NCBI GenBank assembly: GCA_949751835.1
Contig: CATKHK010000126.1
Span: forward strand, 40,782 to 104,781
Source of the DNA: Blepharisma japonicum
Lineage: Eukaryota; Ciliophora; Heterotrichea; Heterotrichida; Blepharismidae
Length of the DNA stretch: 64,000 nucleotides
Direction: 5' to 3'
This document shows, piece after piece, positions 23,839-64,000 of this stretch. Each line of letters begins with the position of its first letter. The stretch's first letter is position 1. The notes below the pieces were generated by a model. That model was not told the origin of the DNA and searched no databases. It worked only from the letters and a program-made list of their open reading frames with translations. The position numbers and the translations under genes are program-made.

Positions 23839-24424
23839 TTTTTAACCTTTAGGTCGCTTATGAGGGGAATGGTCAGTAGCTTTGAATTAGTAGAATTTAT
23901 GAATTAATAATTTTCAATAATCTATTTGAAAAGTTATCTGCCAAAATTAGTATAGATTTGTAATACTTGCAATAAATTTTACTCATCTAGTTCACATATT
24001 TTTTTAATAATCTAACTTTAATGACATTTTTAAGTTTTGAAAATTTCTATCAAAATGAAACCAAAAATTTAATCTATTGAATTTATAATTTTAAATACTA
24101 GCAGTTTAAATTCAAAAGAATTTAATTGAAATGGCCAATATATTGTCATTTTTACAAAAAGTATCTAAATTCTTATTTATTTTTTTGATTTTTTAAAAAT
24201 CTTCTAGAGCATTATCTAATAAATTTTGTTTATTTTTTTGAGCTTCTTCATCTTTTTCGTTTTGGCCACTTTTGACAGAAGAATATTTAACAAGTCTGCC
24301 AATCCCAGCATCTGCAATTCTGGTTGATGACAATTGAAACCGAAATAATTTAAAAATATTTTTGTCTTTCTCAGATATTAAAAGGCATGGAAGATACTTT
24401 TTTTGGTAAAATACTTAGATATTG

Positions 24425-24650
24425 AATCAGCGGCTTGATCCTTGACTATTTAGGAGCCACAAGATTTACACCACTGACCTCTCTGCGAAATATATGCAGG
24501 AGCCAAGTAGCAGCTGAGCCAATGAGACCCGCTAGATTACTGGTATCTTGGTTTTGAGCAGCCAGATAGGATGATCTATGACATCACGATTACGGAAGGA
24601 AAGGTCACTTCCTGAAATCTCTATAGCAGTAGTGACGCATATTAAATCTT
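24425..24650 (-). other. Less AT-rich replacement segment in receptor A
   Basis: Between the premature TAA after helix 8 and the surviving tail homology (from 24408), receptor A carries about 230 bases that replace the roughly 90 bases encoding helix 9 in the other copies. The segment is visibly richer in G and C than its surroundings and has no open frame. Part of it (minus strand, near 24530) weakly resembles a polymerase III A box and can form a CTGC/GCAG hairpin, but it does not fold into a convincing tRNA. Confidence 0.4.
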
Positions 24651-26414
24651 ATTAATTTTAGTTAAGATATACCACAGCAAATTCAAAATATAAGGCTAAA
24701 TGATAAAAAAATACTATATCACAATGAAGCCCTATCATAATTAAATGGCTTTTTGTATACTGAAATTATGAAATATACAAGAAACAAGGCAATGCATGAT
24801 CCTATAAAAGCATTTTGAGAAGCTGGATAAACAATTGTATATAGAATAATAAAAACCATTTGCACATAACTTTTTAGTATAGTATGAAAGGGCTGCTCTT
24901 GAAAATGGAAAGGCAAATCATTTTTTCATAAGGGTCTATAGCCAAGGCTTGTTGACATATATAAGCAAATTCCTCAGCAAGATAGAACGACATAGTAAAT
25001 ATGCTTATCTTTTCAGCAAAATGCTGAACAGTCCCTATTATGGAAACTGTTGCTAAAACTATCCCCAATACTATTTGTGCATTGAAAAGTTTGAAATAAA
25101 TTCAAACAGACTGGTAAGAATAGTGAATCGCCAATAAAAGGCAAAAAATACCTATTAAATTCGTTAATTCCTATAATTATGCAATTCTTGGAACTTTCGC
25201 CAATTTTATATTTTTTTCAAAAAACCAGGAAAAATCATGCAAAAGAAACTCCTTCAAATAATTGTAATTGATTTCAAAACGTAAAATGATTTCTTTTACT
25301 TCAACCAGTTATATTAAGGACCATAATTTTAGTCAAATCCGATAGCTGAGGGAAAAAACTATCTATTTCATCTCCTGAATACATATATTGTAGACACTCA
25401 ATAAGGATAATAATATATGAAAAAGAATCAAAAAAATTTTCTTTTTCAACCGTTATAAGTTTCTGTATTGAAAAATCAAAAATAAAGTGCGAAAATTTAA
25501 ATACAAAGCCAGTCCCAATTATTATCGGAATAGCTTCAATTGCTATCAAAATAAAATAGCCTTTTATGAACGACTGAACTTGTCTTTCTTTGAAAGGACA
25601 TTTCTGGTCTTCTCCTATAATATCGCTGGGAATATGCCCTTCAGTAGACGCCCAAAAAGATTGTTTAATTTGTAGCACAATCAACTGGCTTGGATCATAG
25701 AGTCCACAAAGGTTCATTTTTCAGGTAGAGTTAACTTGAATTAAGTTATAAATCCCCAAAACTGTTGTTAGCCTATCATTCCCATCTTGGCTAATTTGGA
25801 CTATTCCTGAACAGCCTGTAAATTTTACATCTCTCATAGCTTTTTGAGTTTTTGAGCTTTCTAAATTTATTCCTCGATTTATTAAAGAGTTTATGGCATA
25901 AATTCCAAGATATGCAGCATCATAAAATAGGCACATATTATCATAGGCAAATCCAAAGCGTGATAAAAAATTTTTTTTGATGTTTAACCCTATTTGATTC
26001 TGAAATGCTAAAGAGCTGATATAGATGAGTCCATTCATAATTTCTTTTCGTTTTTTATATGAGTCTGTATTAATCCACTTTTCATCCAAATCAGATATGC
26101 TTAGTATTTTAAAAATTCTTTTAAATAAATTAAAAGTCTTTAGCAAAAAACTAATTACTCCATCAATAGATAAAGTTAGCATTCCATCGCCTGTAATAAG
26201 AAAAATATCAGTCTCTCTCATTCCCAAATCATAAAATGCCTCAATTACATACAAAATGTCAGGCTGCTGGATTTCTAAAACGACGTATCTGCTTTTTAGG
26301 TCAATAATTTCCTGAATCATTATTTTACTTGTACCATTAAATCCTAAAGGCACAACTCGGATTTTATTTAAAATTGTTATGCCATGTGAATCCGTCTGAT
26401 TTATGAACTGGGAG

Positions 26415-26989
26415 TTGAAATCTCTTCTTCATAATAAAAATATGATGCTATTATCCTTTTTGCTTGAAAAATAGAAATCCTCCTTGGCCAAATCTTTGAT
26501 TATTAGGTTAGGCTTCACCCCATAAATTAACACCTTTATTATAGAGAGCAAGATCCCGGTTGTGAAAAGGATATTGGAATTTTATAAATAATCTCAGACT
26601 ATGAAGACTGTGACTTTTATGTTTTTTAGCAGATGAAATTAGTGCACTTAAAACTTTAAATCTTGACTAGCAGATTCAAGGCCTGAAAGTACCAATACCT
26701 GATGAGAAAAGATTGTAGAAGCAAAAGGTTTGCAAGATGAGTAATTTAATAGTATACTTAATCGCTCTTTAAACTTCCTTAAAACCGCTTTCTTAGCTTC
26801 TAATATCATTTTGTCTTTGCCAGTCATATTCTCTTGCAAATATTTTAACATTCCTGCCAGGGCTTTGACTTCCAAATTCGCATTAGCAAAGACAGAAAAG
26901 TACAAATTGCTAACTATTGCTCTAAAAAAGCAATTTAAATAAAGCCCGCTTCTTGGGTTATACAGATTAAATGATAATAATTTAATTGA
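26415..26989 (-). mobile_element. 575-bp insertion in receptor A flanked by direct repeats
   Basis: On the minus strand ATGAGGGAGAGATTTCAA (27007-26990) and ATGAAGAAGAGATTTCAA (26432-26415) flank the insert; the last eleven bases are identical. Removing one repeat plus the insert joins the receptor frame exactly (frame shift of 2 corrected by 575 bp). This fits a target-site duplication. Unlike the insertions in B, C and H it is not TA-bounded. Terminal inverted repeats were not seen. Confidence 0.55.
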
Positions 26990-27007
26990 TTGAAATCTCT
27001 CCCTCAT
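26648..27007 (-). CDS. ORF of unknown origin inside the 575-bp insertion
   Basis: A 119-codon open frame starts at the ATG created at the insertion junction and ends at TAA 26650-26648. Its second half looks like genuine coding sequence, with a Lys/Glu-rich helix-like stretch followed by a Ser/Cys-containing segment. It has no similarity to the receptor family that I can see, and I do not recognise a domain. It may be a fragment of another gene carried by the insertion, or a chance ORF. Confidence 0.3.
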   Translation of the reverse strand: MRERFQSIKLLSFNLYNPRSGLYLNCFFRAIVSNLYFSVFANANLEVKALAGMLKYLQENMTGKDKMILEAKKAVLRKFKERLSILLNYSSCKPFASTIFSHQVLVLSGLESASQDLKF

Positions 27008-28753
27008 TGTGAATCTGAATATAATAGTGAGCACTTAGAAATTCCAAAGATACTTAAAACTAAGGCTATTGCTGAAGATGTAATTGAATTTGGATAAGAA
27101 ACTCTTAAATATTGAGGATAATATTCAAAATTACTCGTTATAGTTGATGTCTCAACGCCTAGAACAGGTATTGACACATTTATGGATTGAAATAAATTTA
27201 TTGTTTTTCCAATAATATTTGTATCTACTGTAGGTAAATGAAAATACCCTAAATCTGCAGTATGGTTTGATGAGCAGCTAAATATTGAATAATCATTAAA
27301 ACTGCAAGTGATATTGTTCATTAAAATAATAAAGTTTGGCAATAAAATCCCTTCGCTTTTAATTGTTTCTACTGCAAAATTCGCTCCATATTGATTCCTT
27401 GTATTTATTACACTATCTTCTCCATTGATGCTTATAGGAATTTTAATTTTTTCATTATTCGGTACTTCATAAGTCTCTCCTGGGAACATCAATTTATCAT
27501 GCAGCTGTAATCCTTTACCATTTATTAATCCGACAGCTGCCAGACTCCCATCACTTTTTATATTTCAAATACTGCATGCAATTGTATCAATAGTAAATGT
27601 TTTCTGCACATATTTATTTAACGCAAAAGCTGAATATGATCCTTGTATGTCATTATCCGCAACAATTTGATATAGCAGCAGAGATGTATAATAAACTAAT
27701 TTTTCAATAAAATCACGAAGCCCAGTGCTATGATATGATCTTGCCTCAAATAAAATTGAGCCTTTTAAATAAGCACCTCAAGCAGCTTCCTGCAAATAAA
27801 TATAAGTGTATCCTTCTTTGTCCATATCAGCTTCTACTAAAGCTTGCTGAATTAAAAGAGAAACCGCTGCATTTGTTTGAAAGAAAAACCATTTAACCCC
27901 TAACGGCTTGATTTCCTTTGAAATTAGTGAAAAAATGTACTCGTAAGGTATTGACTCAGGAATTGAGTATTGGGCAACAATCTCTATTCCTTTATCGTTA
28001 GTAAAATCCATCCCAGCAAAATTGCTTGTAATGATAGCGATTACTTTTGTAATTCCATAGATTTTGGCAAAATTTATTGCAAAATCTCGATATTGACTAA
28101 ATGAGTAGTCGGTGTAGAAAACGTAAGGTAAAGACTTTTCTGGCGTATTGCCATAAATGAAGTGTATAAACCCATATTCTATTGCGTATTGGCTTACTAA
28201 TGCAGATGCTAAGAGACCAGTTGAATCATATACAAATAAATAGTCAGAATTTGAAAAAGTTTTCTCTATATCTGATATATTATTGATTTCAATAGCTTGA
28301 TATTGATAGGGCCTAGTTAAGTCGCAGCCTGACAGATTGTTTAATGAGCAATCCAAAGTATTCACAAAGTAATCAATAAGCGAGGGATCAGTTTTTCTAC
28401 TGTATAAAATAGGAATTGTAAAAATCTGACTCTTCACAAAGTATAGGAATAGGCAAAAAAAAATTAACATTCAATAATAATAAATTATTAAATTAGTTGC
28501 CAAAAATAATTGAATTTAGTATTAAGGCAAGCTTGAAATTTGGAAAAAAAATTTAGTAAAAATAATAAGAAGGAGGTGAGTCATGCCTAAATATTTTGTG
28601 GAAATTATTAATTGTTTTAAGAAAAATTCGAATAATAATATATTAACAAATAAAATTAATAGAGAATTTTAATTAAAAGAGCTTGAAGTAATAAGATTTA
28701 AATATCAATTCTTTAAAAAAATAATTATCGATTTTTTATGCTATTTTCAAATT

Positions 28754-31700
28754 TTACTTTTGAGTGTTGTTATAATTGCATATACTTGAATTATATTCAC
28801 TCAAATACTCCACATTACTATTGCTTGGCTCAATAAGCTGAACATTTGACTTTAAAATATCATCATCTGGGGCACTCCAGCCTGAGTGATTGGATTTAAT
28901 ATGTGATGAATTTCTAGCATAAATATATTTGGCTGATTTTGCAATTCCTGCATCCTCAAGATTAATTGAAGACAGCTGAAATCTGAACAATTTATAAATA
29001 CTCTGGCCCTTTTCAGTTTCCAACAGTGAAGGCAAATATAATTTTTGATAAATAATGCCAATCACAATTAATACAGCCCATCCTAACAGAAGAACAATGA
29101 ACGCAGAAAGTCTATCAAGCTTCACTATAATGCAACTAATTCAAAGCATTAGGCTGCAAGACAAAAATATTATATACCACATTGAAGCTCTATCGTAATT
29201 CAAAGGTCGTCTCAATACAGAGATTATGATATAAGCCAATAATACCCCAATGCCCAACCCAAGATAAATATTTTCAGATGCAGGCTGAACTATTGTCGAT
29301 AGACCAACTAAAGTTATTTGTGTAAAAGTTTTTACTGCACAATGAAAAGGTTGATCTATAAAATGAAATGGTAGATCATTTTTTCATGTAAATCTGAGAT
29401 ATAAACTTATTGGAGTAAATAAGCAAATCCCTATTGCAGAAAAAAATACGTAATATATATGATCGTCTTGCCAACAAAACATCGAGCAGTATTGATTGTG
29501 AAAACTATCGCTAAAGTTATTGCCAATGCTATTTGTGCATTGAAAAGTTTCAAATAAATATACTCATTTAAAGAGATTAATGCTTTTTAGATTGCAGATC
29601 ATTTCAGTCATGCCATAGAATAAAAAATATTGAGCCAGCATATAATAGAACGGGTAAAAATAATATATCCCCAAGTGAAGGTAAGATATATCGATTAAAG
29701 ATGTTGATTGCCTCTAATATTAAATTTTGAGATACTTCGCCTATTTTTAATTTCTTTCATAATAATAAAATACATCATGTAAAAGCTAAGGCTATATAAA
29801 GCTGTATCTGGTTTCAAAATGTGAATAGCCCTGGTTTAAAAATTCCTCTTATATCAAGCATTGTTAGCCTTGTAACGTTTGACAAACTCGGAAAAAATTC
29901 TTGAAAATTTGGCCCTATTTGCATATATTGTATACTTTCTATTAGCTCTCCTCCTCTATAATATTTGGATAAAGTCCCATAGTCTGATCAAATTAAAAAT
30001 ACTATTTTCAAATTGTAATTCTTACAAAAATTAACTAATTGTTGAATTTTAGGATTAAACACAATAAAATATAAATAATTGAGCCCTAAATTGCATTCAA
30101 AAAATATTTTGTATTAAAATAAAAAATGATCAAAAAATTGCAACGCCACGAAAGGAGATTAAAAAAATTAAATAAGAAATAGTATCAAAGAAATTCTCTT
30201 TTTGTCTTGTAATAAATTTTGGGTATTTTTTTTTGAAAATAAAATCATAATATTTTATCGCAAAGGTAATTACAATGACCAATGGAATTATTTCAACAAT
30301 CATCAATATGAAATACCCATATAGAAAAGGCTGCACAAGAATGTCTCTGAATGGGCATTCCTGATCATCTCCTATTATATCACTTGGAGCTCCTCCATCT
30401 GCATTTCAAGATATCGATTGTTTAATTTGAAGCACAATAAGTTGGCTTGGATCATAAAGTCCGCAAATGTTCATTGTAAAAGTTGAGTTAATTTCTACTA
30501 AGTTATATATTCCTAAAATAACTGTAAGCCTATCATTACCTTCTTGGTTAACTCTTACAATTCCAGAGCATCCTGAAAAAGCGACTTCTCTCACGGAATC
30601 TTGAATAGTAGAGCTATTCACATTTACTCCTCAATTTATTAATGAGTCTATCGTATATAGTCCAAGATAGACTGCATCATAAAATAAGCACGTATAATCA
30701 TTTATATAATCATATTTAGATAGAATCTCTCTTTTTAAATCAAGCCCAATTTTATTTTGGTAAGCTAAGAAGCTTATATAAATAAGCCCACTCATAATTT
30801 CTTTTCTTTTATTAAAAGATTTGCTTCCAATTAATTTTTCATTTAAATCAGAAACGCTTATCATCCCATCACCTATGATTAAATAAATATCGCCTTCTCT
30901 CATTCCTAAATCATAAAATGCTTCAATCACGTATAGATTATCAGGTCATCTCACTTCTAAAATCACGTATCTGCTTTTGAGATCAATAATTTCCTGGATC
31001 ATTTTTTTATCATTTCCATTAAATCCTATAGGAATATTTCTGTTTTTATTTAAAATTTTTATCCCGTATGCATCAGTTTGATTCTGGAATTGGTCACTGA
31101 AATCCCTTCCCCATTGAGAGTCTGAATGTAATAAAGAGCATTTGGAAATTCCGAAAACACTTAAAATCAAGGCAGCTGCTGAAGCTGTCCGTGAATTTGG
31201 ATAAGAAACTCTTGCATATTGGGGATAATAATCAAGACTGCTTAGCACAGTAGATGTTTGGACACCTAAAACTGGTGTTGAAATATTATTTTCTTGAAAA
31301 ATTTGCATTGTCTTCAAAGTTGGTGTCGTTTCTAATCTTGAAATGTGAAAATAGCCTAAATCTTCTATATGGTCCAATAGACAGCTAAGAGTTGTATTAT
31401 TTTCTTCATACTCACAGTCTGTAATATTATAATTCACAATATCAAAATTTTGCAATAAGTCTTTTTTTCCTGTAATTTCATTTATAGCTAAAGTAACCCC
31501 TATTTGGCCCATCATATTGAGATCATCATTGCTGTACCTTGCTCCATTTATACTTATAGGAATTTTAATTTTTTCAGAATTTGGTGGGGTCGAATTTCCT
31601 CCAGGAAATATAACATTAGGATAAATTTGTATTCCATTTCCATTTATTAACCCAATCAATTTTACACTTCCATTCTGAACATTATAAAGCGTAAATCCCA

Positions 31701-32589
31701 TAATCTCAGGCTTTAATATATCAGCTAAAAGTGTATTCAATATATATCCTGAATATGACCCATGGACTGAATTACTAGATAACAAGTCATAAACAACCGC
31801 AGACGCTCAATATACCAGGTTATCTATGTAATTAAAAATATCAGTGCTATGGAACCATTTTCCTTCTAATAATATCGATCCTTCTAAGTAAGCCCCTCAA
31901 GCTGCTTCTTGAATATAAATATACATGTAGTCTTCTTTATTCATGTCTGCCTCAACCAATGCTTGCTGGATTAATTTCGAAATTTCTGGATTTGTTTTAA
32001 AATAAAACAATTTAACACCTAAAAGTTTGAGTTTTTTTGAAAATAACCAGAAAATATACTCATAAGTGGCTGTTTTAGAAATTATTAATTGAGCTACTAT
32101 TTCAACCCCTTCATTATTGAAAAAATCCATTTCAGTAAATTCACTACTAATAATAGCGATTGCTTTTTCAATTTGATAAGTTTTTGCTATAGATAATGCT
32201 GCTTTAACATAGGAGTCATAAGAATAATCTGTGTAAAGCAGAAATGGTAACGTTTTGTCAGAGGCATAGCCTATAATAACTTGGATAAACCCTAATTTTC
32301 TTGCGTATTCGTTTATCAATGTAGATAGCCCTAGAGAAGCGCATCCATCTCACATAATCACTGTGTCTGAGTTTATAAAAATGCTTTCTAAGTCAGAAGA
32401 GTCTGACACCTCATAAACCTTGAATCGGAACTGTGAGGCAATTTTACAACTTACATCATTTAAATCTGAACAATCCAAAGTATTCTTTAAATAATTAGCC
32501 AGAAAAGGTGACGTATATTGGCTGTATAGAATTGGGACAATAGAAAATTGCCCAGCAGTGATCCCAAGAAGAACACAGAATTTGATCAT
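28754..32589 (-). CDS. Receptor B: double Venus-flytrap receptor, two TA-bounded insertions
   Basis: The gene starts at ATG 32589 (signal peptide MIKFCVLLGITAG) and ends at TAA 28756-28754. Two ANF-receptor-like domains occupy about residues 15-330 and 340-700. The second has the family hallmarks YYPQYARVSYPNS, CLFYDAVYLGLYTID and FSGCSGIVRVNQEGNDRL. The membrane part is interrupted by 217 bp inside helix 2 and 82 bp inside helix 4, both containing stops. Removing both between their TA repeats gives one frame of 1,178 residues; the lengths correct a two-step frame change exactly. A conserved tail (LFRFQLSS, LKSNVQLIE) follows helix 9. It is a tandem duplicate of C. It is functional only if the insertions are removed from DNA or RNA; otherwise it encodes a truncated receptor with one complete helix. 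Confidence 0.7.
29563..29644 (-). mobile_element. TA-bounded 82-bp insertion in receptor B (IES-like)
   Basis: TA at 29561-29562 and 29643-29644 bound the insert. Joining them gives the helix-4 sequence LPVLLYLFETFQC, in register with other family members. The 82 bp supplies the remaining frame correction needed to reach the conserved tail and stop codon. Only a few bases of terminal inverted similarity are visible. Receptor C has the 81-bp homologue. Confidence 0.65.
29945..30161 (-). mobile_element. TA-bounded 217-bp insertion in receptor B (IES-like)
   Basis: The coordinates cover the removable part with one TA. TA dinucleotides at 29943-29944 and 30160-30161 flank it. Joining them restores Leu-Ile-Phe-Leu-Ile-Glu-Ser in helix 2, matching the uninterrupted paralogues. 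The ends carry a short imperfect inverted repeat (TCTCCT a base or two inside each TA). The interior has several in-frame stops. No GT-AG splice boundaries fit the junction. The same insertion occurs in receptor C at 208 bp. Confidence 0.7.
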
Positions 32590-33106: not shown

Positions 33107-36100
33107 TTAATTTTCCTTTTGAATACTGTTATAATTGCATATACTTGAATTATATTCACTCAATAACTCCACATTACTATTGCTTTGCTCCATAAGTTGG
33201 ACATTTGACTTTAAAATATCATCATCTGGGGCACTCCAGCCTGAGTGATTGGATTTAATTTGTGATGGATTTCTAGCATAAATATATTTGGCTGATTTTG
33301 AAATTCCTGCATCTTCAAGATTAATTGAAAACAGCTGAAATCTGAATAATTGATAAATACTCTGGCCTTTTTCAGTTTCCAATAATGAAGGCAAATATAA
33401 TTTTTGATAAATAGTGCCAATCACAATTAATACAGCCCATCCTAACAGAAGAACAATAAACGCAGAAAGTCTATCAAGCTTCACTATAACGCAACTAATT
33501 CAAAGCATTAGGCTGCAAGACAAAAATATTATATACCACATTGAAGCTCTATCGTAATTCAAAGGTCGTCTCAATACAGAGATTATGATATAAGCCAATA
33601 ATACCCCAATGCCCAACCCAAGATAAATATTTTCAGATGCAGGCTGAACTATTGTCGATAGGCCAACTAAAGCTATTTGTGTAAAAGTTTTTACTGCACA
33701 ATGAAAAGGCTGATCTATAAAATGAAATGGTAGATTACTTTTTCATGTAAATCTGAGATACAAACTTGTTGGAGTAAATAAGCATATCCCTATTGCAGAA
33801 AAAATAACGTAATATATATGATCTTCTTGCCAACAAAACATCGAGCAGTATTGATTGTGAAAACTATCGCTAAAGTTATTGCCAATGCTATTTGTGCATT
33901 GAAAAGTTTCAAATAAATATACTCACTTAGAGAGTTCAATGCTTTTTAGATTACAGATCATTTCAGTCGTGCCATAGAATTAAAATAGTGAGATAGCATA
34001 TAATAGAACAGGTAAAAATAATATATCCCCAAGAGGAGGTAAGATATATCGATTAAAGATGTTGATTACCTCTAATATTAAGTTTTGAGATACTTTGCCT
34101 ATTTTTAATTTCTTTCATAATAATAAAATACATAATGTAAAAGCTAAGGCTATATAAAGCTGTATCTGGTTTCAAAATGTGAATAGCCCTGGTTTAAAAA
34201 TTCCTCTTATATCAAGCATTGTTAGTCTCGTAGCGTTTGACCACCTTGGAAAAAATTCTTGAAAATTTGGCCCTATTTGCATATATTGTAAACTTTCTAT
34301 TAGCTCTCCTGCTATATAATATTTGGATAAAGTCCAATAGTCTGATCAAAATTAAAAATACTATTTTCAAATTGTAAAATTAATTAATTGTTAAATTTTA
34401 GGATTAAACACAATAAAATATAAATAATTGAGCCGTAAAATTGCATTCAAAAAATAGTTTGTACTAAAATAAAAAATGATTAAATCTTGCAACGCCACTA
34501 AAGGAGATTAAAAAAATTAAATAAGAAATAATGTCATAGAAATTCTCTTTTTGTATTGTGATAAATTTTGGGTATTTTTTTTTGAAAATAAAATCATAAT
34601 ATTTTATTGCAAAGGCAATTACAATGACCAATGGAATTATTTCAATAATGATCAATATGAAATAGCCATAGAGAAAAGGCTGCACAAGAATGTCTCTGAA
34701 TGGACATTCCTGATCATCTCCTATTATATCACTTGGAGCTCCTCCATCTGCATTTCAAGATATCGATTGTTTAATTTGAAGTACAATAAGTTGGCTTGGA
34801 TCATAAAGTCCGCATAGGTTCATTGTTCAAGTTGAGTTAATTTCGACTAAGTTATATATTCCTAAAATAACTGTAAGCCTATCATTACCTTCTTGGTTAA
34901 CTCTTACAATTCCAGAGCATCCTGAAAAAGCGACTTCTCTCACGGATTCTTGAATAGTAGAGCTATTCACATTTACTCCTCAATTTATTAATATATCTAT
35001 CGTATATAGTCCGAGATAGGCTGCATCATAAAATAAACACATATAATCATTTATATAATCATATTTAGATAGAATCTCGCTTTTTAAATCGAACCCAATT
35101 TGATTTTGGTAAGCTAAGAAGCTTATATAAATAAGCCCACTCATAATTTCTTTTCTTTTATTAAAAGATTTGCTTCCAATTAATTTTTCATTCAAATCAG
35201 AAACGCTTATCATCCCATCACCTACGATTAAATAAATATCGCCTTCTCTCATTCCTAAATCATAAAATGCTTCAATAACATATAGATTATCAGGTCATCT
35301 CACTTCTAAAATCACGTATCTGCTTTTGAGATCAATAATTTCCTGGATCATTTTTTTATCATTTCCATTAAATCCTATAGGAATATTTCTGTTTTTATTT
35401 AAAATTTTTATCCCGTATGCATCAGTTTGATTCTGGAATTGGTCACTGAAATCCCTTCCCCATTGAGAGTCTGAATGTAATAAAGAGCATTTGGAAATTC
35501 CGAAAACACTTAAAATCAAGGCAGCTGCTGAAGCTGTCCGTGAATTTGGATAAGAAACTCTTGCATATTGGGGATAATAATCAAGACTGCTTAGCACAGT
35601 AGATGTTTGGACACCTAAAACTGGTGTTGAAATATTATTTTCTTTAAAAATTTGCATTGTCCTCAAAGTTGGTGTTGTTTCTAATCTTGGAATATGAAAA
35701 TAGCCTAAATCTTCTATATGGTCCAATATACAGCTAAGAGTTGTATTATTCTCTTCATACTCACAGTCTGTAATATTATAATTCACAATATCAAAATTTG
35801 GTAATAAGTCTCCTTTTTCTATAATTTCATTTATAGCTAAAGTAACCCCTATTTGGCCCATCACATTGAGATTATCATTGCTATGCCTTGCTCCATTTAT
35901 ACTTATAGGAATTTTAATTTTTTCAGAATTTGGTGGGGTCGAACTACCCCCAGGAAATACAACATTAGGATAAATTTGTGTTCCATTTCCATTTATTGAT
36001 CCAATCATTTTTATAGTACCATTTTGAACATTATAAAGTGTAAATCCCAAAATCTCAGGCTTGAATATATCAGCTAAAAGTGTATTCAATATATATCCTG

Positions 36101-36938
36101 AATATGACCCATGGACTGAATTACTAGATAACAAGTCATAAACAACCTCAGACCCTCAATATACCAGGTTATCAATGTAATTAAAAATATCAGTGCTATG
36201 GAACCATTTTCCTTCTAATAATATCGATCCTTCTAAGTAAGCCCCTCAAGCTGCTTCTTGAATATAAATATACATATAGTCTTCTTTATTCATGTCCGTC
36301 TCAATCAATGCTCGCTGGATTAATTTCGAAATTTCTGAATTTGTTTTAAAATAAAACAATTTAACACCTAAAAGTTTGAGTTTTTTTGAAAATAACCAAA
36401 AAATATACTCATAAGTGGCTGTTTTAGAAATTATTAATTGAACTACTATTTCAACCCCTTCATTATTGGAAAAATCCATTTCAGTAAATTCATTACTAAT
36501 AATAGCGACTGCTTTTTCAATTTGATAAGTTTTTGCTATAGATAATGCTGCTTTAGCATAGGAGTCATAAGAATAATCTGTGTAAAGCATAAATGGTAAC
36601 GTTTTGTCAGAGGTATAGCCTATAATAATTTGTACAAACCCTAATTTTCTTGCGTATTCGTTTATCAATGTAGATAGCCCTAGAGAAGCGCATCCATCAT
36701 ACATAGCCACAGTGTCTGAGTTTATAAAAATGCTTTCTAAGTCCGAAGAGTCTGACACCTCATAAACCTTGAACCGAAACTGTGAGGCAACTTTACAACT
36801 TCCATCATTTAAATCTGAACAATCCAAAGTACTCTTAAAATAATTGACCATAAAAGGTGACGTATATTGGCTGTATAGAATTGGGACAATAGAAAATTGT
36901 CCAGCAGTGATCCCAAGAAGAACACAGAAATTAATCAT
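33107..36938 (-). CDS. Receptor C: double Venus-flytrap receptor, two TA-bounded insertions
   Basis: It runs from ATG 36938 (signal peptide MINFCVLLGITAG) to TAA 33109-33107. Domain order is as in B: ligand-binding domain 1 ending in a VQNG-x-IKMIG / FPGG linker, domain 2 with NITDC, YYPQYARVSYPNS and GCSGIVRV motifs, then about nine helices with the Cys loop ending CSMFCWQEDH, and the tail motifs LFRFQLFS and LKSNVQLME. Insertions of 208 bp (helix 2) and 81 bp (helix 4) sit at exactly the same codons as in B. Removing both leaves 3,543 bp, an unbroken 1,180-residue frame. Because 208 shifts the frame and 81 does not, the pattern differs from B (217 and 82), yet both come out in frame. That argues for continued removal rather than decay. 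Ligand unknown. Confidence 0.72.
33922..34002 (-). mobile_element. TA-bounded 81-bp insertion in receptor C (IES-like)
   Basis: It is bounded by TA at 33920-33921 and 34001-34002 and is homologous to the 82-bp insertion in B. Removal restores LLYLFETFQC in helix 4. A CTCACT-like stretch occurs near both ends in inverted orientation. Confidence 0.65.
34303..34510 (-). mobile_element. TA-bounded 208-bp insertion in receptor C (IES-like)
   Basis: It is bounded by TA at 34301-34302 and 34509-34510 and is homologous in position and much of its sequence to the 217-bp insertion in B. Joining the TAs restores the helix-2 frame. It has the same short imperfect inverted ends. The length difference from B lies in internal indels. 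Confidence 0.7.
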
Positions 36939-38935: not shown

Positions 38936-39095
38936 TTTTTGGATTTGGGTTTCAAAATTAGCCGCTATCGAAAATTGCTCCATATAGACCATGGAAGGAG
39001 ATATCACCCAAGGCCTTTCAATAATAAAGCAATTTTTATTTATTTATTATATTTATTATATATAGATACTATATACTCTTATTTGACAAAATACT

Positions 39096-50100: not shown

Positions 50101-50708
50101 GGTTTGTTTGTTTTAAAGAAAAATCATTTGACACCTAATGGTTTTATTTTTTTGGATATTAGCCAAAAAATGTAGTCGAAAGTCGCTGTTTGAGGTAGAA
50201 TAAACTGTCCGACTATTTCAATACCCTTATTGTTGTTGAAGCTCATTTCAGCAAATTCGCTACTAATAAGGGCTATAGCTTTTCGTATATTATATGATTT
50301 AGCTATGTTTAATGCTGCATTTGCATACTCACTTAGCTGATAATCGGAATAAAAAACATGCTCCAGAGTTATTCGTAAAGGGTAACCAATAATGATTTGG
50401 AGGAATCCTAAGCTTCTTGCATATGTATTTATTAATGATGATATTCCTAATGATGAAACAGCATCATAAATAAGGAGAAATTCTGAGTTTTCAAATATTT
50501 TTTCAATGTCTGACAAATCAGTAATTTCGTATAGATTGAACCGAAAAGGTAAGTTTAATTTACAGCCAGCCTTATTTTCAGGTGAACATTCTAAGGTGTT
50601 CTTGAAATATTTAACAAGCAAAGGAGAAGTATTCTTGCTATATATAATCGGCACTATGATAAATTGACCTATTGCAATTCTAAGAAGAATGCAAATTTTT
50701 ATCAGCAT
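47145..50708 (-). CDS. Receptor F: intact double Venus-flytrap receptor, 1,187 aa
   Basis: It starts at ATG 50708 (signal peptide MLIKICILLRIAIGQ). The frame passes a TGA at 47174-47172 and ends at TAA 47147-47145, so the last nine codons are seen only with TGA as Trp. Domain 1 (about 16-325) has the YARSLGFLQIIIGYP and LIQQALIEADMNKKGF motifs; domain 2 (about 335-700) has NITDC, YYPQYARVSYPNS, CLFYDAVYLGIYTID and GCSGVVRLSQDGNDKL. About nine helices follow with FQCTSSIGDSFKDSF...CSTFCWQGEH in the loop. The tail is longer than in D and E and includes KLFRFQLLAISLEAAGI and NLKSSIQFLD. It is intact, with no insertion at the sites used in B, C or H. Confidence 0.88.
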
Positions 50709-51828: not shown

Positions 51829-54800
51829 TTATATAGTTTTGTTCTCATTCAAATATGAGTTATCTAAAAACTCAAATCTCAAATTGTTTGTGTCTATAAT
51901 TTGGCTAGTATCAAGGCGTTCTTTTATGGATATGCTACTTTCTGATCAATTTAAAATATTTTCATTGATTTCACACTCATTAGTTAGATAAATGCTTAAT
52001 TCTGAATTTTCTTTATTTTCTTCATCTCACTCTTCACCATTAATAAGTTGGATACTTACTATAGATTTTTTGTTAATTTCCTCTGGCTTTTCACCTATTT
52101 CTTCTTTTGACATTCCATATCATTTTCACTCATCAGATTTTGATAACTTTTCTTTTTCTGATTCACTGTGTTCTGGTTCACTATGCTCTGATACATTTAT
52201 TCTTTTCTCAATAATTTCCTCTTCATTTTGACATAATTCTTGACTTGAATAAGCATATTTAAATAAATTTTTAATCCCAGAATCTGCTATTCTACTAGAC
52301 GTTAATTGAAACCTAAACAAATGGTAAATATCTATACCTCTTTCAGATATTAAAAGTGAAGGAAGTCTTAATTTTTGATAAAAAATTCCAAATAAGACTA
52401 ATAGAGTCCATCCTACAGTAAGTACCGCTAGTGCTGCAGTTTTATCACCTTTTGAGATTCCGCAGCAAATTCAAAACAAAAGACTAAAAGCCAAAAAAAT
52501 AGTATATCACATTGAAGCTCTTTCATAATTAAACGGCTTTTTATATATAGTGATTACTACGTATATAAAAAATAGTCCAATGCATAACCCAATAAATACA
52601 ATCTCTGAAGCTGGCAAAACAATAGTGTGTAGGACAATAAAAATCATTTGTATATAGCTTTTTAGAACGAAATGAAAAGGCTGCTCTTGAAAATGAAAAG
52701 GTAAATTATTTTTCCATAGAGGCCGGCAATAAATACTTGTAGGCATGTATAGGCAAATTGCTAGAGAAGAGACAATGACATAATATATGTGCTCTCCTTG
52801 CCAGCAAAAAGTTGAACAAATTTTGTCATGGAAACTGTCATAAAAACTATCCCCAATGCTGCTTGTGCACTGAAAAGTTTGAAATAAATTCAAACAAATA
52901 GGCAAAAACAGTGAATCCCCAATAAAAGGTAAAAAATATAAATTAAATTCGTTTATCCCTAAGACGAAACAGCTTTTCGAGTTTTCTCCTATTTTTCTTT
53001 TTTTCAGTAAATATAAAATAAATCAGAGAACTGCAATTACTTCAAAAAATTCTGCTTGGTTTCAAAAATTAAAATAATTTCTTTTATTTCAGCCAGTTAT
53101 ATTAAAAATTACTAATTTTGTGATATCAGTTAGTTCGGGAAGAAAATTATTGATTTCTTGTCCTGTGTGCATATATTGGAAGCACTCGATAAGCATAATA
53201 ATATAAGAAAGAGAGTCACAAAAATTTTCTTTTTCTACTGTAATAAGTTTCTCAATAGAAGAATTTATAATAAAATTGTAAAATTTAACCACAAAAATAG
53301 CCCCAATAATTATAGGAATAATTTCAATAACTATTAAAATGATGTAGCCTTTTAAAAATGATTGAACTTGTCTTTCTTTAAATGGGCATTTTTGGTCGTC
53401 TCCTATAATTTCACTAGGAATTTTAATAGAGATCGAAAAACTCTGCAAAAGCTGCAGCACAATCAGTTGGCTTGGATCATAAAGTCCTTGAAGATTTAAT
53501 TTTCATTCAGAATTTACTTGTAATAAAGCATACATTCCCAGAACCGTTGTAAGTCTACTATTTCCATCTTGCGTAATTTGAACTATTCCAGAGCAGCCTG
53601 TAAATTTTACATCTCTTATAGAATTTTGCATTGATTGACTATTTATATTGATTCCTCTATTTATTAAAGAATTTATTGCAAAAATTCCAAGATAAGCTGC
53701 ATCATAAAATAAGCACATATCATCATATGCAAAACCATATTGGGACAAAAAATTATTTTTAATACCAAGTCCAATCTGATTTTGGAAGGTTGGATAACTA
53801 AAATAAAGCAGCCTACTCATAATTTCTTTTCTTTTTATATAAGAATCTGCATTTATTCTTTTCTCGTTTAAATCTGAAACGCTTATAGTCCCATCGCCAG
53901 CAATCAAATATATATCGCCGTCTCTCATTCCTAAATCATAAAATGCTTCAATTACATGCAAAATATCTGGCTGCTGGACTTCTAAAACCACAAATCTTGT
54001 TTTCAAGTCAACAATCTCTTGTATAACTCTTTTATCAGTTCCATTAAAACCTAATGGAACTGCTCTGATTTTATTTAAAATTTTTATGCCGTAGGATTCA
54101 GTCATGTTTTTAAATTGTTCGCTAAATTCTTTTCCTCATATAGATTCTGAATATAATAAAGAACATTTAGATACGCTGAAAATACTTAAAATTAAAGCAG
54201 CAGCTGAAGATGTAATTGAATTTGGATAAGAAACTCTTGCATATTGAGGATAATAGTCAAGATTATTCATTATAGTTGATGTTTCTACTCCGATAACTGG
54301 AGTGGTAATATTAAGGGATTGAAATATTTCTATTGTAGATAAGGATACTGAGGTATCTGCTGGAGGTATATGAAAATAGCCTAAATCTTCTGTAAGATTT
54401 TGAAAGATATCATAAGCTGAATTATCACTTAAAAAACAGTCAGTGATATTATTAAATGATAAGTTAAAATTTGGCAGTAATTTTCTCTCATCTTTTATAG
54501 TTTCTAGCGCAAAAGTCGCTCCTAATTGACTTAAATCATTGATTCTTGAACAATTCATTCCGTTTAGACTTATAGGAATTTTAATCTGTTCATTATTTGG
54601 GACTATATAGGTTCCTCCAGGAAACATTATTGGAGCAAGTATTTTTATACCTTCTCCATTTATCACTCCTACGGGATTCAAGATTCCTTCTCCTTGAATA
54701 TTTCAAATTGTTACTCCTATCCCGTCCAAAGTAAAAGTCTGCTGTGCAAAAGTATTTAAAATATATGCTGAGTATGATCCTTGAATATCGTTAGTTGATA

Positions 54801-55611
54801 TTATCTGATACAAAAGTACAGAGGTTCAATAAATAATTTTTTCAATATAATCGTAAAAATCATAACTATGATATCATTTTGCTTCTAATAAAATTGAGCC
54901 TTTTAAATAAGCATTTCAAGTTGCTTCTTGCATATAAATATACGTATATCCTTCTTTGTCCATGTCAGCTTCTACTAATGCTTCTTGAATTAATTTAGAA
55001 GTTTTTGAATTTGTTTCGAAGAAAAATCATTTAATGCCTAAAGGTTTAATTTCTCTTGATATAAGGGAAAAAATATATTCATAAGTCGTAGATTCAGGAA
55101 TTTTGTATTGGGCGACAATTTCAACGCCTTGATCATTATTAAAATCCATTTCGATGAAATCACTTGTAATAATAGCAATTGCTTTTTTAATTCCATAAAT
55201 TTTGGCAAAATTGATTGCTAAATCTCTATATACACTAAGACGAAAATCGGAATAGATCACATAGGGCAAAGCGCTTTCAGGCGTATTGCCATAAATAAAA
55301 TGTATGAACCCATATTCCATTGCATATTGGCTGATCAATGTGTACATACTTAGTGAAAAAGTTCCATCAAAAACAAATAAATAATCTGAGTTTGCAAAGG
55401 TAACTTCTAAGTCAGAAACATCATAAATTTTGACAGCTTCGTACTGGTATGGCAAATTTAGATTGCAGCCTACTCTATTATTTATTGAGCAGTCTAGAGT
55501 ATTCAAAAAATAGTCAACCAGCAATTGATCGGTATATCTGCTATATAAAATTGGTATTGTAAAGATCTGGCATACGGCAAAGTCTAGAAAAAGCCCAAAA
55601 TAAGTTATCAT
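51829..55611 (-). CDS. Receptor G: intact double Venus-flytrap receptor with long tail, 1,260 aa
   Basis: A single frame runs from ATG 55611 (signal peptide MITYFGLFLDFAVCQ) to TAA 51831-51829, reading many TGA as Trp. Domain 1 carries AKIYGIKKAIAIITSDF; domain 2 carries YYPQYARVSYPNS, CLFYDAAYLGIFAINS and GCSGIVQITQDGNSRL. About nine helices follow, with FQCTSSIGDSFYDSF...CSTFCWQGEH in the loop and KKPFNYERASMWY before helix 8. The cytoplasmic tail is about 170 residues, the longest in the array. It has a Glu/Ser/Lys-rich stretch (EHSEPEHSESEKEK), a KSIVSIQLIN version of the family tail motif and a Ser/Asn-rich end. G is the closest intact relative of the broken gene A. The long acidic tail suggests partner binding or phosphorylation, which is inferred. 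Confidence 0.88.
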
Positions 55612-56836: not shown

Positions 56837-59800
56837 TTAAGTCTCCATTTCAATTTCACATAACTGAATACTTGATTTAACGTTATCCTCTTCTGGCATA
56901 TATTTTTTAGGGGATTTTAATATTTGCTGAGTTTTTACTTCACTAAAGTTACGAGCGTCATTTTCTACATAAACATATTTAAGCGATTTCGTCTTAATAA
57001 TGCCTGCCATTTCTGGACTATTTGATGACAGCTGAAACCTAAAAAGCCTAACAATATTTATAGCTTTGTCTGCCTCTAATAGACAAGGAAGTCTCAGCTT
57101 TTGATAAACAGCTCCAAATATAGCTAATATAATTAGCCCGATAGACAGTACTATTAAGGCTGCAATCTTGTGAAGTTTTAATAATTCACAACAGCACCAG
57201 AATAGCAAAGCAGAAGCTATAAAAATTATATATCACAATGAGGCTCTATCATAATTCAATGGCTTTTTAATTGCTGAGATTATCAAATATAGCAGCAGTA
57301 AGCCAATGCATAGTCCCGAGAAAGCTTCATCAGAAGCAGGATTTACTATTGTAGCAAATGCAATAAAAACAATTTGTATAGTGCTTTTTAAAGTTATGTG
57401 AAAAGACTGCTCTTGAAAATGAAATGGTAAATCATTTTTTCATGTAAATCTAAAGTATAAGCTTGTAGGGAGATACAAAGAAAGTGCTAAAGAAGAAATA
57501 AAAGCATAAATAATATGATCTCCTTTCCAGCAAAATGTTGAGCAATAATGGTCATTGAAGCTGTCTGTAAAATTATCACCAATGCTACTTGTGCACTGGA
57601 ACGTTTGAATTAAATAAAAATTGATAGGTAGAAATAGTATTTCCCCTATAATAGGCATAATATACAAGCTAAGATCATTGACAGTCCCCAATATAGAATT
57701 TTTCGTCGGATTTCTACACTTTACTAGATATTTTCAAAAAAATAGTAAAATTCATGTAAATACTAAGGCTTGATAAAGTTGCACTTGATTCCAAAAAGTG
57801 AATAGGCCATTTTTAAAAATTCCTCTTATATCAAAAAATACTAATTTAGTAGCATTTGATCATCTAGGGAAAAAATCTTTAAAATTTGGAGACATTTGAG
57901 TATATTGTACGTTTTCTATAAAAATAATAAAATAAGAAAGAATATCAAGAAGGTTTTCTTTTTCAGTGTTAATGAGTTTTGGGTATTTTTGGCTAAAACA
58001 AAATTTGTAAAACTTCACCACAAAAAAAAATCCAATAAATATCGGAATAATTTCGATTATTATCAAATAAAATATCCATAGAGAAAAGACTGCACAAGAA
58101 TGTCTCTGAATGGACATTCTTGGCCATCTCCTATTATATCATTCGGAACCCCACCATTAGAATTTCAAGAAATTGATTGCTTTATTTGAAGCATAATAAG
58201 CTGGCTTGGATCATAAACTCCACAAAGATTCATTGTCCACGTTGAATTAATTTCTATTAAGTTATAAATTCCTAAAATTGTCGTAAGTCTGTCATTACCT
58301 TCTTGGCTAATTCTTACAACTCCAGAATAACTAGTAAAAGCAACTTCTCTGACTGTGTCTTGAATTGTAGAGTAATTCAAATTAACTCCTCAATTCATTA
58401 ATGTATTTATCGTATATAGACCAAGGTATGCTGCATCATAATATAAACACATAATATCATTTACAAAGCCATACTCGGATAAAATTTTGCTTTTTAAATC
58501 AAATCCAAATTGATTTTGAAACGCCAAGAAGCTTATATATATAAGTCCACTCATAATTTCTTTTCTTTTATTATAAGATTTACTTCCAATTAATTTTTCG
58601 TTTAAATCAGAAGTACTTATCATTCCATCACCTGTAATTAAATAAATATCGCCTTCTCTCATCCCTAAGTCATAAAATGCTTCAATTATATAAAATATAT
58701 CAGGTTTATGCACTTCTAAAACAATAAATCTGGTTTTCAGGTCAATAATTTCTTGTATTATTTTTGTATCGCTCCCATTAAAACCTAATGGAACTACTCT
58801 TTTTTGGTTTAAAATTCCTATTTGATATGATTTAGTCTGATTTTCGAAATGCTTAATAAAGTCTTCTCCTCATAGTGAGTCTGTATAGAGCACAGAGCAT
58901 TTAGAAATTCCAAAAACACTTAAAATCAAAGCAGCAGCCGATGCAGTTCGTGAATTTGGGTAAGAAACTCTTGCATATTGTGGATAATACTCCAAACTGC
59001 TCATTAAAGTTGATGTTTCTACTCCTAAAACAGGAGCCAGTATGCTATTTTCTTTAAAAAATTTCATTGCTTCTAGCACCAATTCAGTTTCAGATGCAGA
59101 AATATAAAAATACCCGAAGTCAGTTAAATTATTAAACTCACAATCAGTGACATTCTTGGTTTCAATATCAAAATTTGCCAAAAAATTATCCTCTGCCTTT
59201 ATAGCATTAATTGCAAAATCAACTCCTATTTGATTTACTGTATTTAGTCCATCATTATTATAACTTACTCCATTTACACTTATCGGAATTTTAATTTTTT
59301 CAGAATTCGGAGGGTCAGTTGTTCCTCCAGGAAATACCAAGTCTGAATAAAGCTGAAATCCAGCCTCATTAATATTCCCAGCTTTTGTTACAATTCCATT
59401 TTTGATATTTCAGATTGTATATCCCATAACTTCAGGTTTTAATACATTGGCTAAAGACTTATTTAATATGTATCCTGAAAAGGATCCTTGATTTCTATTA
59501 TAGGTTAATAAATTGTATACATTATTTGCGGCAAAATGAAGGAGCTTATAAATATAGTTATAAATATCAGTGCTGTGCCAGGATTTTGCTTCTAGTAATA
59601 TAGAGCCTTCTAAATAGGCACCATAAGCTGCTTCTTGTATATAGATATAAGTATAGCCTGCTTTATTCATGTCGGCTTCAACTAATGCTTGTTGAATCAA
59701 TTTAGAAATAGCCGGATTTGTTTTTAAAAAAAATCATTTAATCCCTAGAGGTTTTATTTGTTTCGAAATTAATCAAAAAATATAGTCATAAGCGGCTGCT

Positions 59801-60453
59801 TGGGGTACAATTATTTGATTAATAATTTCAATCCCTTCTTCATTTTTAAAATCCATCTCAATATATTCACTGGTAATAATGGCAATTGCTTTATCAATAT
59901 TATCTTTTATAGGGTCTTTTTGCATCAGTAACTAGGGAACTAGTTACAAAAAGTTCCCTATTTCCCAGTCAGAAGACTGCAAGAATAAGCAACTTGCTAT
60001 GACTTTAATTAATACTGATACCTAAAAAGACCAACGACATATATAATTTTTGGCTATAGATAGCGCAGCTTCCACATAGGAATTGTATGAGTAATATGAA
60101 TAAAATGAATGGGATAAAGCATTTTTAGGAGGATAACCTGCAATAGTTTGAAGAAACCCTATTTTTCTTGCATACTCGTTTATTAATGCAGATATCCCTA
60201 ATGAAGCTGTTGCGTCAAAAATGATAACTATATCTGAATTTACAAAAATTGCATCCAAATCAGAAAAATTTGCGATTTTATAGACTATGAATCGAAAATG
60301 TAAATCCGCCTTGCAGCCTACGTTAGTTACATTTGAGCAGTCAAAATTATTCATCAAATAGTCAGCTAGTGCGGGAGAAGTACTTTCGCTTATCAAAATT
60401 GGGACAATCGATAATTGTCCAGCTGCGATCCCTATGAGTATTCAGATTATCAT
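56837..60453 (-). pseudogene. Receptor H: family member with 141-bp insertion and frameshift
   Basis: It starts at ATG 60453 (MIIWILIGIAAGQ, fourth codon TGA) and ends at TAA 56839-56837. Two faults separate it from an intact gene. A 141-bp TA-bounded insertion after AKNY in domain 1 brings an in-frame TAG. One base is also missing from an A run at 58065-58067 (TTTT in I, TTT here on the coding strand), which shifts the frame at helix 1. Removing the first and allowing for the second leaves a 1,158-residue protein with all domains and the NVKSSIQLCE tail motif. The rest is well conserved, so the faults are recent, or one is an assembly error and the other an element removed in vivo. I label it pseudogene with that reservation. 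Confidence 0.6.
59903..60043 (-). mobile_element. TA-bounded 141-bp MITE/IES-like insertion in receptor H
   Basis: TA at 59901-59902 and 60042-60043 flank it. Joining them gives Ala-Lys-Asn-Tyr-Asn-Ile-Asp-Lys-Ala-Ile-Ala-Ile-Ile, which matches the paralogues in length and sequence. Subterminal inverted repeats of about 18-20 bp are clear: GGTCTTTTTGCATCAGTA (59913-59930) against the inverse of bases 60013-60032. A hairpin with AGGGAACT/AGTTCCCT arms (59934-59959) lies inside. It has no ORF. The combination of TA boundary, inverted repeats and precise frame restoration fits a MITE-derived IES. Other excision points (for example TA at 59909) would leave extra residues. Confidence 0.65.
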
Positions 60454-61298: not shown

Positions 61299-63998
61299 TT
61301 ACACATTTTTGACTATAGCGCTGTTGCTACAGCTCGAGCTATAATCCCCAACAAGTTCGGCATTTTCATTGCCAATGTCAAAGAACTGAATGTTTGATTT
61401 TATGTAATCCTCTTCTGATAAAAAATTTCTAGGAGATCTCAACCTTGATTGAATTTTTATCTCTTTTGGTGAAGAATCCTCATAGATATATTTCATTGAC
61501 TGAACTTTAGAAATTCCTGCAGCTTCAGGAGTGATTGAAAATAGCTGAAATCTAAAAAGTCTATGAATATCTAAACCTTTTTCAGAATTCAATAGGCAAG
61601 GAAGTTTCAATTTTTGATAAATAACTCCAGATATCAATAATAATATTCAGCCAATTATTAGCATAACGAATGCAACTATTTTATTTGCTTTTGCTAGAGC
61701 ACAACAGCATCAAAGCCATAAACTGCAAGCTATAAAAGCTATATATCACAATGAGGCTCGGTCATAATTCAATGGCTTTTTTATTGTTGAGATTATTAAA
61801 TATAATAGAAGTAAACCTATACATAGCCCTAAAAAAGCATTTTCAGAAGCAGGATTTATTATTGTGACCAATAAAACCAAAAAAAATTGGACGGTACTTT
61901 TTAGGGCAAGGTGAAAAGGCTGCTCTTGGAAGTGAAATGGTAAATCTTTTTTTCAGGTAAACCTGAAGTATAAACTTGTAGGGAGATACACAGATAGCGC
62001 TAAAGAAGAAATAATAACATAAGTAATATGCTCTCCTTTCCAGCAAAATGTTGAGCATATATGATCATTGAAGCTATCTTTAAAATTATTTCCTATGCTA
62101 CTTGTGCATTGAAAAGTTTGAAATAAATACAAATTGATAGGCAAAAATAGAATTTCTCCTATGATAGGAGTAATGTAAAGGATAAGTTCATTAAAATCTA
62201 CCAATATAGAATTGTCTGAAGTTTTTCCTATTTTGAGTATTTTCCATAAAAATAACAAGAATCATATAAATGCAAGAGCTTCATAAAACTGTATCTGAAC
62301 TCAAAATGTGATTAAGTCTTTTTTAAAGAATCCTCTTATATCAAGTGTTGTAAATTTGGTTAAATTAGATCATTTGGGGAAAAAGCCTGTAAAATCTGGC
62401 CCTACTTGCATATATTGCATATTTTCTATCACAAAAAGTAAATAAGAAATAATGTCATAAAAATTTTCTTTTTGAGTTTCAGAAAGCTTAGGGTATTTTT
62501 GTTTAAAAATAAAATTGTAAAATTTTATTACAAAAACAATTTCAATAATCATTTGAATGACTTCGATTATTATCAAAATAAAATATCCATTGAGAAATGA
62601 CTGTACAAGAATATCTCTGAATGGGCATTCTTGATCATCTCCTATTATATCACTAGGAACGTCTCCCTTTGCATTTCATGAAATCAACTGTTTTATTTGA
62701 AGCACAATAAGTTGGCTTGGATCATAAAGTCCACAAAGATTCATAGTTCAGTTTGAGTTAACTTGTATTAAGTTATAAATTCCTAAAATAACTGTAAGTC
62801 TATCATTGCCTTCTTGGCTAACTCTTACAACTCCAGAGCAGCCTGTAAATGAGACTGCTCTAACTGAACTTTCAATATTAGTGCTATTTACATTAATTCC
62901 TCAATTTATTAGCGCATCTATCGTATATAGGCCAAGATAAGTTGCATCATAAAATAAGCACATATAGTCATTTAGGTAGTTATATTCAGCTAAAATTTCA
63001 TTTTTTAATTTATTGCCAATTTGATTTTGAAATGCCAAGAAACTTATATAGATAAGCCCACTCATAATTTCTTTTCTTTTATTGTAAGATTTGTCACCGA
63101 TTAATTTTTCTTCTATATCAGATGTACTTATCATCCCATCACCTATAAGTAAAAAAATATCGCCTTTTCTCATTCCTAAGTCATAAAATGCTTCAATTAT
63201 ATACAAATTATCAGGCCATTTAACCTCTAAAACTATGTATCTGCTTTTCAGGTCAATAATTTCTTGTATAATCTTTTTATCACTACCGTTGAATCCTAAT
63301 GGAACAATTCTATTTTTATTTAAAATTTTAATATCATATTCCTCAGTATGTTTTGCAAAATGCTCATTAAAATCTCTTCCTCATTGTGAATCTGAGTATA
63401 AAAAAGAGCATTTAGAAATCCCGAAAACACTTAAAATAAGTGCAGTTGCTGATGCTGTGCGTGAGTTTGGATAGGAAACTCTTGCATATTGAGGGTAATA
63501 ATTTAAGTCGCTCATTGCAGTTGACGTCTGCACCCCTAAAACAGGTGTCAAAATATTATTTTCTTGGAAAATTGCTATAGTTGATAAGACTGTAGATGTT
63601 TCAAGTCTGGGAATATAAAAATACCCCAGATCATCAAAATGGTCTAAAAAGCATAAATTATCATTAATACTGCTGCAGTCCGTTATATTATTAACAGAAA
63701 TATCAAAATTCGATAATATTTCGTCTTGTTCTTTAATATTTCTTATAGCTAAAGAAATTCCTATTTGATTCAAAATATTCAATCCGTTATTATCAGATGT
63801 TGATCTACTTGTGCTGATAGAAATTTCGATTTTATTATTATTTGGTGCATCATAAGTTTCTCCAGGAAATAATAGAGGAGAAACCATTTGGATTAATTTT
63901 CCATGTATAGTCCCTACTGCTTTTATACTTCCACCTTGCACATTTCAAATGGTATATCCCATATTCTCAGGCTTAAGATATTCTGAAATCATTTTTCC
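61299..63998 (-). CDS. Receptor I: double Venus-flytrap receptor, N-terminus outside window
   Basis: The frame is open from the window edge (first complete codon 63998-63996) to TAA 61301-61299, giving 899 residues with TGA as Trp. The visible part begins near the end of domain 1 (EYLKPENMGYTIWNVQGG, FPGETYDAPN linker). Domain 2 follows with NITDC, GVQTSTAMSDLNYYPQYARVSYPNS, CLFYDATYLGLYTID and a GCSGVVRVSQEGNDRL-type motif. There are about nine helices, with FQCTSSIGNNFKDSF...CSTFCWKGEH in the loop. The tail has LFRFQLFSITPEAAGI and IKSNIQFFD and ends in a Ser-rich stretch. It is intact over the visible part. The array probably continues to the right. Confidence 0.87.
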
Positions 63999-64000
63999 CA

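Follow-up and report, generated by a model that had tools for sequence, protein, structure and literature searches.

A tandem array of nine candidate chemoreceptor loci with two Venus-flytrap domains and a nine-helix membrane part in Blepharisma japonicum

We identified nine related receptor loci, arranged head-to-tail on the minus strand between positions 24196 and 63998 of a 64,000-nucleotide stretch of the genome of the heterotrich ciliate Blepharisma japonicum (GCA_949751835.1, contig CATKHK010000126.1, positions 40,782 to 104,781; hereafter the window). The loci were recovered by reading frames with TGA as tryptophan and by tblastn, with gene F of the array and six Blepharisma stoltei proteins as queries. 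This agrees with the nine-member tandem array of a preliminary description made from the letters alone, and the motifs quoted there are found in the array sequences. By computation, the proteins have two consecutive Venus-flytrap (VFT) domains followed by nine membrane helices, the domains have traceable homologues, and the family is large. We consider it fairly probable that these proteins are chemoreceptors of heterotrichs, in which amino-acid-type VFT sensors would be mounted on a transducer that is not a G-protein-coupled receptor (GPCR) and is possibly TRP-like; the channel step of this proposal is held with less confidence than the combined chemoreceptor statement. The loci, and the parts of receptor F, are the following (window positions):

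24196..28470, minus strand: receptor A, carrying an insertion of about 0.5 kb (about 26432-26952) and broken a second time close to where the membrane part ends
28757..32589, minus strand: receptor B, with two insertions that interrupt the membrane part, one of about 0.2 kb (near 29946-30156) and one shorter
33110..36938, minus strand: receptor C, a recent duplicate of B with interruptions at the same sites
39099..42533, minus strand: receptor D, intact
43244..46660, minus strand: receptor E, intact, close to D
47148..50708, minus strand: receptor F (P0001, 1187 amino acids), intact, 16 in-frame TGA read as tryptophan
49704..50663, minus strand: VFT domain 1 of receptor F (residues 16-335), transferred by alignment, without a Pfam match in F
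48483..49703, minus strand: VFT domain 2 of receptor F (residues 336-742), ANF_receptor
47424..48476, minus strand: nine-helix membrane domain of receptor F (residues 745-1095), with a C..C...CW...H loop between helices 4 and 5
47148..47423, minus strand: tail of receptor F past the last helix, presumed to lie on the cytosolic side
51832..55611, minus strand: receptor G, intact, 1260 amino acids, long tail
56840..60453, minus strand: receptor H, broken in domain 1 by an insertion of about 0.1 kb and again at helix 1, where the frame changes
61302..63998, minus strand: receptor I, intact within the window, 5' part past the window edge

Five of the nine loci are thus uninterrupted: D, E, F and G, which are single intact frames of 1139-1260 amino acids counted from the first ATG, and I up to the window edge. 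Insertions break up the other four (A, B, C and H), and in H the frame also changes. Receptor A is 83% identical to the B. stoltei protein P0009 over the matched stretches. On hydropathy, gene F starts with a hydrophobic stretch at its N terminus, which may be read as a putative signal peptide.

Domain 2 is an ANF-type flytrap, as it had been read before: the Pfam domain ANF_receptor lies on it in each of D, E, F and G, the window genes that were scanned, and the same domain is present in 8/8 relatives and 14/14 family members scanned. Domain 1 was matched by this profile in none of the four window genes; among the eight relatives, six have two ANF stretches and two (L004 and L007) have one each. 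That domain 1 nonetheless follows the flytrap fold, a further point of the preliminary description, is borne out by these paired stretches, by an hhalign comparison of domain 1 with domain 2 (probability 98.8, E 7e-17), by the VFT secondary structure seen in the AlphaFold2 model of a relative, P0022, and by profile matches. A 63-sequence family profile led from domain 1 to the amino-terminal domain of the NMDA-receptor subunit GluN1 (E 6e-25) and from domain 2 to the plant glutamate-receptor-like protein GLR3.4 (2e-29), with class C GPCRs also matched by domain 2. The underlying alignment kept 63 of 72 sequences, the nine of 1090 amino acids or less being dropped, and domain 1 was sufficiently covered in 62 of the 63. 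In the conserved member P0014, an S-Y-G-A-T-S loop aligns with the S-Y-G-S-S-S loop of GABA-B1, which we take to be ligand-binding there. The corresponding loop reads G-(V/I)-x-T-S in the window clade, and the ligands of the two types therefore probably differ.

The count of nine helices rather than seven, also made previously, is upheld by two structure models, hydropathy and loop charges. The AlphaFold2 model of P0022 (63 rows, predicted local distance difference test (pLDDT) 86.9, predicted template modelling score (pTM) 0.68) contains two VFTs and nine long helices. Neither a single flytrap in this model nor a 7TM_3 core by profile was seen, either of which would have contradicted the preliminary description. 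The elements of its membrane part are (residues of P0022):

Helices 1-5: 792-820, 836-855, 886-910, 921-941, 980-1006
Helices 6-9: 1017-1040, 1042-1063, 1069-1092, 1100-1124
Extra elements: short helix 860-873 and hairpin 958-973

The model of gene F (16 rows) is poor (pLDDT 56.6) and served solely as support for the number of helices; its helix set corresponds to that of P0022. Hydropathy agrees with nine helices, but helix 2 lies below the threshold used. When the N terminus is placed outside, lysine and arginine exceed aspartate and glutamate in the inner loops and tail, and the acidic, Cys-containing loop that joins helix 4 to helix 5 comes to lie outside. Near-invariant columns are most numerous in the membrane part together with the tail (35); domain 2 has 19 of them and domain 1 has 7. 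In the window clade the start of the tail is marked by a conserved LFRFQ...AGI-type motif; the tails of the window genes and relatives scanned were without an accepted Pfam domain.

The earlier suspicion that this is not the standard layout of a class C GPCR, an ionotropic receptor or a guanylate cyclase holds for the proteins scanned. Across the 45.2 Mb of the genome (224 contigs), PF00003 (7tm_3) matched three places at E 0.01, none of them in the double-flytrap family, and none of 14 family members at E 1. Likewise, neither the Lig_chan ligand-binding/pore module nor a cyclase or kinase-homology domain was matched by Pfam up to E 1 in the proteins scanned. Whole-chain fold searches, in which the VFT dominates, return VFT proteins and bear on the ectodomain rather than the membrane part. 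A single sub-threshold match to 7TMR-DISM_7TM, in one of the four window genes (21.8 bits, cut-off 29), was absent in the other members scanned and was taken as chance. The three 7tm_3-like frames (C5:680687, C25:371904 and C81:97858) are short (279-319 amino acids) and without a flytrap in the stretches fetched.

By profile comparison, a second family of this genome has a homologous membrane part; that family occupies at least 100 places, some fragmentary or broken by stops, on contigs that include C137, C131, C60, C85 and C11. The membrane parts of the two families align with an hhalign probability of 93.4 (E 2.4e-7, score 61, 245 columns), which brings together the C...C-W..H loop and the K-P-F-N region; other alignments gave a probability of 92.5. 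Reversed and block-shuffled controls reached at most 1.2% (score at most 23.4). Among other multi-helix proteins of the genome (score at most 25.2), 7tm_3-like and unrelated ones stayed at or below 0.4%, and PF06011-type ones at or below 2.4%. L035, the sole member of the second family whose ectodomain was scanned whole, carries beta-helix PMP repeats and a weak Ephrin_rec_like, Cys-rich stretch, and Ephrin_rec_like matches lie directly upstream of four listed second-family membrane parts (C7, C11, C131 and C137). An ectodomain of this beta-helix/Ephrin_rec_like kind was not matched in the double-flytrap proteins scanned. The Ephrin_rec_like genes fetched were set aside as a bridge, most of them showing roughly two membrane helices at the threshold applied, and the L035 family was taken as the bridge instead.

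PF06011 is a TRP-like family of the fungal Flc/Pkd2 type. Its matches overlap three places of the second family (31.4 bits, which is over the cut-off, 26.0 and 22.0), and a comparison of the second family with PF06011-positive proteins gave 48.7%, a step that is suggestive, as one of four shuffles gave 23%. Given this overlap, and despite a weak direct comparison, a TRP-like origin of the membrane domain seems plausible. A further, separate family, seen on C139, C110, C51, C15 and C4, combines PF06011 (TRP) matches with a different type of extracellular region.

In the whole genome the family occupies at least 186 gene places, interrupted genes included, made up of 170 membrane-domain places and 16 ANF-only places. 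This number results from merging three membrane-domain searches with an ANF search, in which the best 102-122 of 257-267 candidates were scored; all 119 rows of one membrane-domain search, 44/122 and 9/122 of the others (both judged new by eye) and all 106 of the ANF search were merged. At least 143 of the places are on contigs carrying three or more. Among the matches listed, C19 has 24 places, C112 has 16, and C126 and C93 have 14 each; C126 is the contig of the window, past which the array extends. An ANF match lies upstream in at least 85 of the 170 membrane-domain places, again among the matches listed. Twelve further members read whole (L001-L008, L036-L038 and one in L039) measure 1145-1293 amino acids from stop to stop and fit the layout of two VFTs and a membrane part by length and reading, part of them having also been aligned or scanned.

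A look into other heterotrich genomes, proposed in the preliminary description, returned relatives in B. stoltei and Stentor coeruleus, and relatives were also found on further contigs. Their database labels in these two species read 'Receptor ligand binding region domain-containing' or hypothetical. A search with gene F gave 12 relatives, all from B. stoltei, the best 84% identical; ANF_receptor was present in 48/48 proteins of the relatives search, and a further protein search (18 matches) returned no additional relative. The protein searches were word-based with the best matches scored, and do not show absence outside heterotrichs. A transcript protein of MMETSP is 100% identical to the conserved member P0049 over the part compared. 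Across five paralogue pairs, the ratio of non-synonymous to synonymous substitution rates (dN/dS) ranges from 0.15 to 0.62 over the three domains; in the tails, compared in four pairs, it is 0.32-0.90. The three domains are under purifying selection in the pairs tested, and at 0.15-0.62 the proteins have been maintained, at least in the past. In four of the five pairs domain 1 shows the lowest identity of the three domains; the fifth (B/C) has a partial membrane stretch. This divergence would fit a variable sensor coupled to a conserved transducer. Family size, clustering, ectodomain type and the faster divergence of domain 1 are all consistent with the lineage-specific class of chemoreceptors that had been put forward as a candidate.

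From the above we infer a surface location and topology, a class of ligands, a mode of gating, a channel output and a chemosensory role. The tandem VFTs, of the periplasmic-binding-protein type 1 (PBP1), would lie on the outer side of the membrane and close when they bind small ligands, of which amino acids, amino-acid derivatives or short peptides are the likeliest. This closure would pass via a W-(P/G)GG..P linker and a C-P-F stalk into the nine-helix membrane domain, which appears unlike the class C GPCR core and may be distantly related to the TRP-like (PF06011) domain. The output that we judge most likely would be a ligand-gated change in conductance, with Ca2+ or cation entry driving a ciliary response; alternatively, the receptors may couple to a cytosolic effector. 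The bolder proposal of a new class of ligand-gated channels, in which tandem amino-acid-type flytraps on a TRP-like nine-helix pore would form a main chemosensory repertoire of heterotrichs and include the receptor for gamone 2 (blepharismone), seems to us unlikely.

Several points weigh against chemoreceptors with a non-GPCR, possibly TRP-like transducer. Between helices 2 and 3 the outer loop has a slight positive charge, contrary to the charge pattern. The amino-acid loops of domain 2 are not alike in all clades, so that amino-acid binding is not required of all members. The link to the second family drops to 55.9% with a subset of 46 conserved-type rows, to 75.4% with 22 divergent rows and to 41.1% with the single sequence L035. 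Moreover, direct hhalign of the membrane domain against PF06011-positive proteins is weak (probability 2.1, and at most 2.4 elsewhere), and PF06011 was found in the full Pfam scan in 0/14 family members and 0/20 second-family members. The TRP-like kinship raised in the preliminary description thus persists indirectly, via the overlap of PF06011 matches with the second family, and falls as a direct match. On the side of GPCRs, a Foldseek whole-chain search puts full-length class C GPCRs first, and passages of a Tetrahymena study report that knockout of a GPCR lowers G-protein activity and chemoattraction, and cite G-protein signals in Stentor and Paramecium (PMC3226668). Divergent class C GPCRs, with seven of the helices forming a 7TM_3 bundle, two extra ones and G-protein signalling, are in our estimate quite unlikely all the same. 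The 28 G-alpha matches all fall within profile positions 143-264 of 333, a part common with small GTPases, and one frame on C42 exceeds the G-alpha cut-off solely via three repeats of this shared part. Such confinement would disfavour a GPCR output while being compatible with one, and in light of the passages on Tetrahymena the weak G-alpha result is not to be read as absence.

The proteins may also bind ligands and yet have a nine-helix part that is neither channel nor GPCR, acting as a scaffold and signalling via cytosolic partners on the inner loops or tail. We find this doubtful. Lysine and arginine on the inner loops, the conserved LFRFQ...AGI-type start of the tail in the window clade and a second family with the same membrane part, without a function that we are aware of, would suit it, but the tail diverges fast (dN/dS 0.32-0.90 in the four pairs) and is without an accepted Pfam domain in the proteins scanned. 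Finally, the VFTs may not be sensors at all and may deliver substrate to a nine-helix transporter for nutrient uptake. They do resemble bacterial branched-chain amino-acid binding proteins (4gnr), but this idea is very improbable: the membrane part has no accepted transporter-family match in the proteins scanned, and an expansion to at least 186 gene places is better suited to receptors.

The proposed heterotrich chemoreceptors share parts with several known systems. Like GABA-B and other class C GPCRs, they have a PBP1-type VFT, a short linker and a multi-helix membrane part, with domain 2 matching by sequence and fold; unlike these, they have two VFTs per chain, nine helices and no 7tm_3 match. 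The likeness to NMDA receptors and plant GLRs lies in the amino-terminal domains of GluN1 (domain 1) and GLR3.4 (domain 2), and the ciliate W-P-G-G type linker is presumably comparable to the GluN1 linker; in contrast to ionotropic glutamate receptors, the ciliate proteins scanned are without the Lig_chan ligand-binding/pore module. With the second family of the same genome they share a homologous membrane domain, the C...C-W..H loop and an inner-loop motif, whereas the ectodomain of L035 consists of a beta helix and a weak Cys-rich module in place of VFTs. The TRP-like PF06011 proteins are linked to them indirectly, through the three second-family places that overlap PF06011 matches, but show no significant direct profile similarity to the double-flytrap family. 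The VFTs of BvgS are of a different class from the ciliate ones. BvgS-type bacterial sensor kinases are alike in having tandem VFTs in one chain and unlike in being histidine kinases of a two-component system, as passages of PMC4352136 have it. Parts of a 2025 survey of GPCRs in animal relatives describe ANF domains together with seven-transmembrane cores (PMC12716839).

These genes are already annotated in databases and, as far as the literature searched, unstudied. Among titles and abstracts on ciliate receptors, our literature search found none describing a double-flytrap nine-helix family, and it found no paper identifying heterotrich chemoreceptors or gamone receptors. A term search for 'receptor' found no occurrence in the text of the B. 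stoltei genome paper (PMC9942806), and passages of PMC10892320 mention putative receptors for gamone 1 and describe gamone 2 as an amino-acid derivative. The family would offer a candidate chemosensory repertoire for heterotrich ciliates, and possibly a form of cellular taste or smell that has gone unstudied. VFT sensors have been described as parts of class C GPCRs, ion channels, cyclases and kinases; here the same sensors occur, doubled, on another membrane module, at no fewer than 186 gene places in one genome. The family also points to a multi-helix domain common to two large families, which is without an accepted Pfam match in the members scanned.

The receptor half of the window (24-64 kb) has a guanine plus cytosine (G+C) content of 28-31%, and its long frames appear only when TGA is read as tryptophan. 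In gene F, at least 5 of the 16 in-frame TGA fall on tryptophan positions that are invariant in the 16-row alignment. The standard code was rejected, as the receptor frames then break at TGA, including at tryptophan positions kept across the alignment. Frame-breaking inserts lie at 29946-30156 (B), 34304-34505 (C), 26432-26952 (A) and about 59930-60060 (H). At its ends, the insert common to B and C shows by eye what may be short inverted repeats (CTCCT/AGGAG), which would fit retention of a mobile or internally eliminated element. The spacer between C and D (36945-39098, 2.1 kb) exceeds the other spacers and contains small frames. On the plus strand, positions 2-23032 of the window form one open frame of 7676 amino acids with TGA as tryptophan, open at the window start, in neither half of which the Pfam scan found an accepted domain; its G+C is above that of the receptor array.

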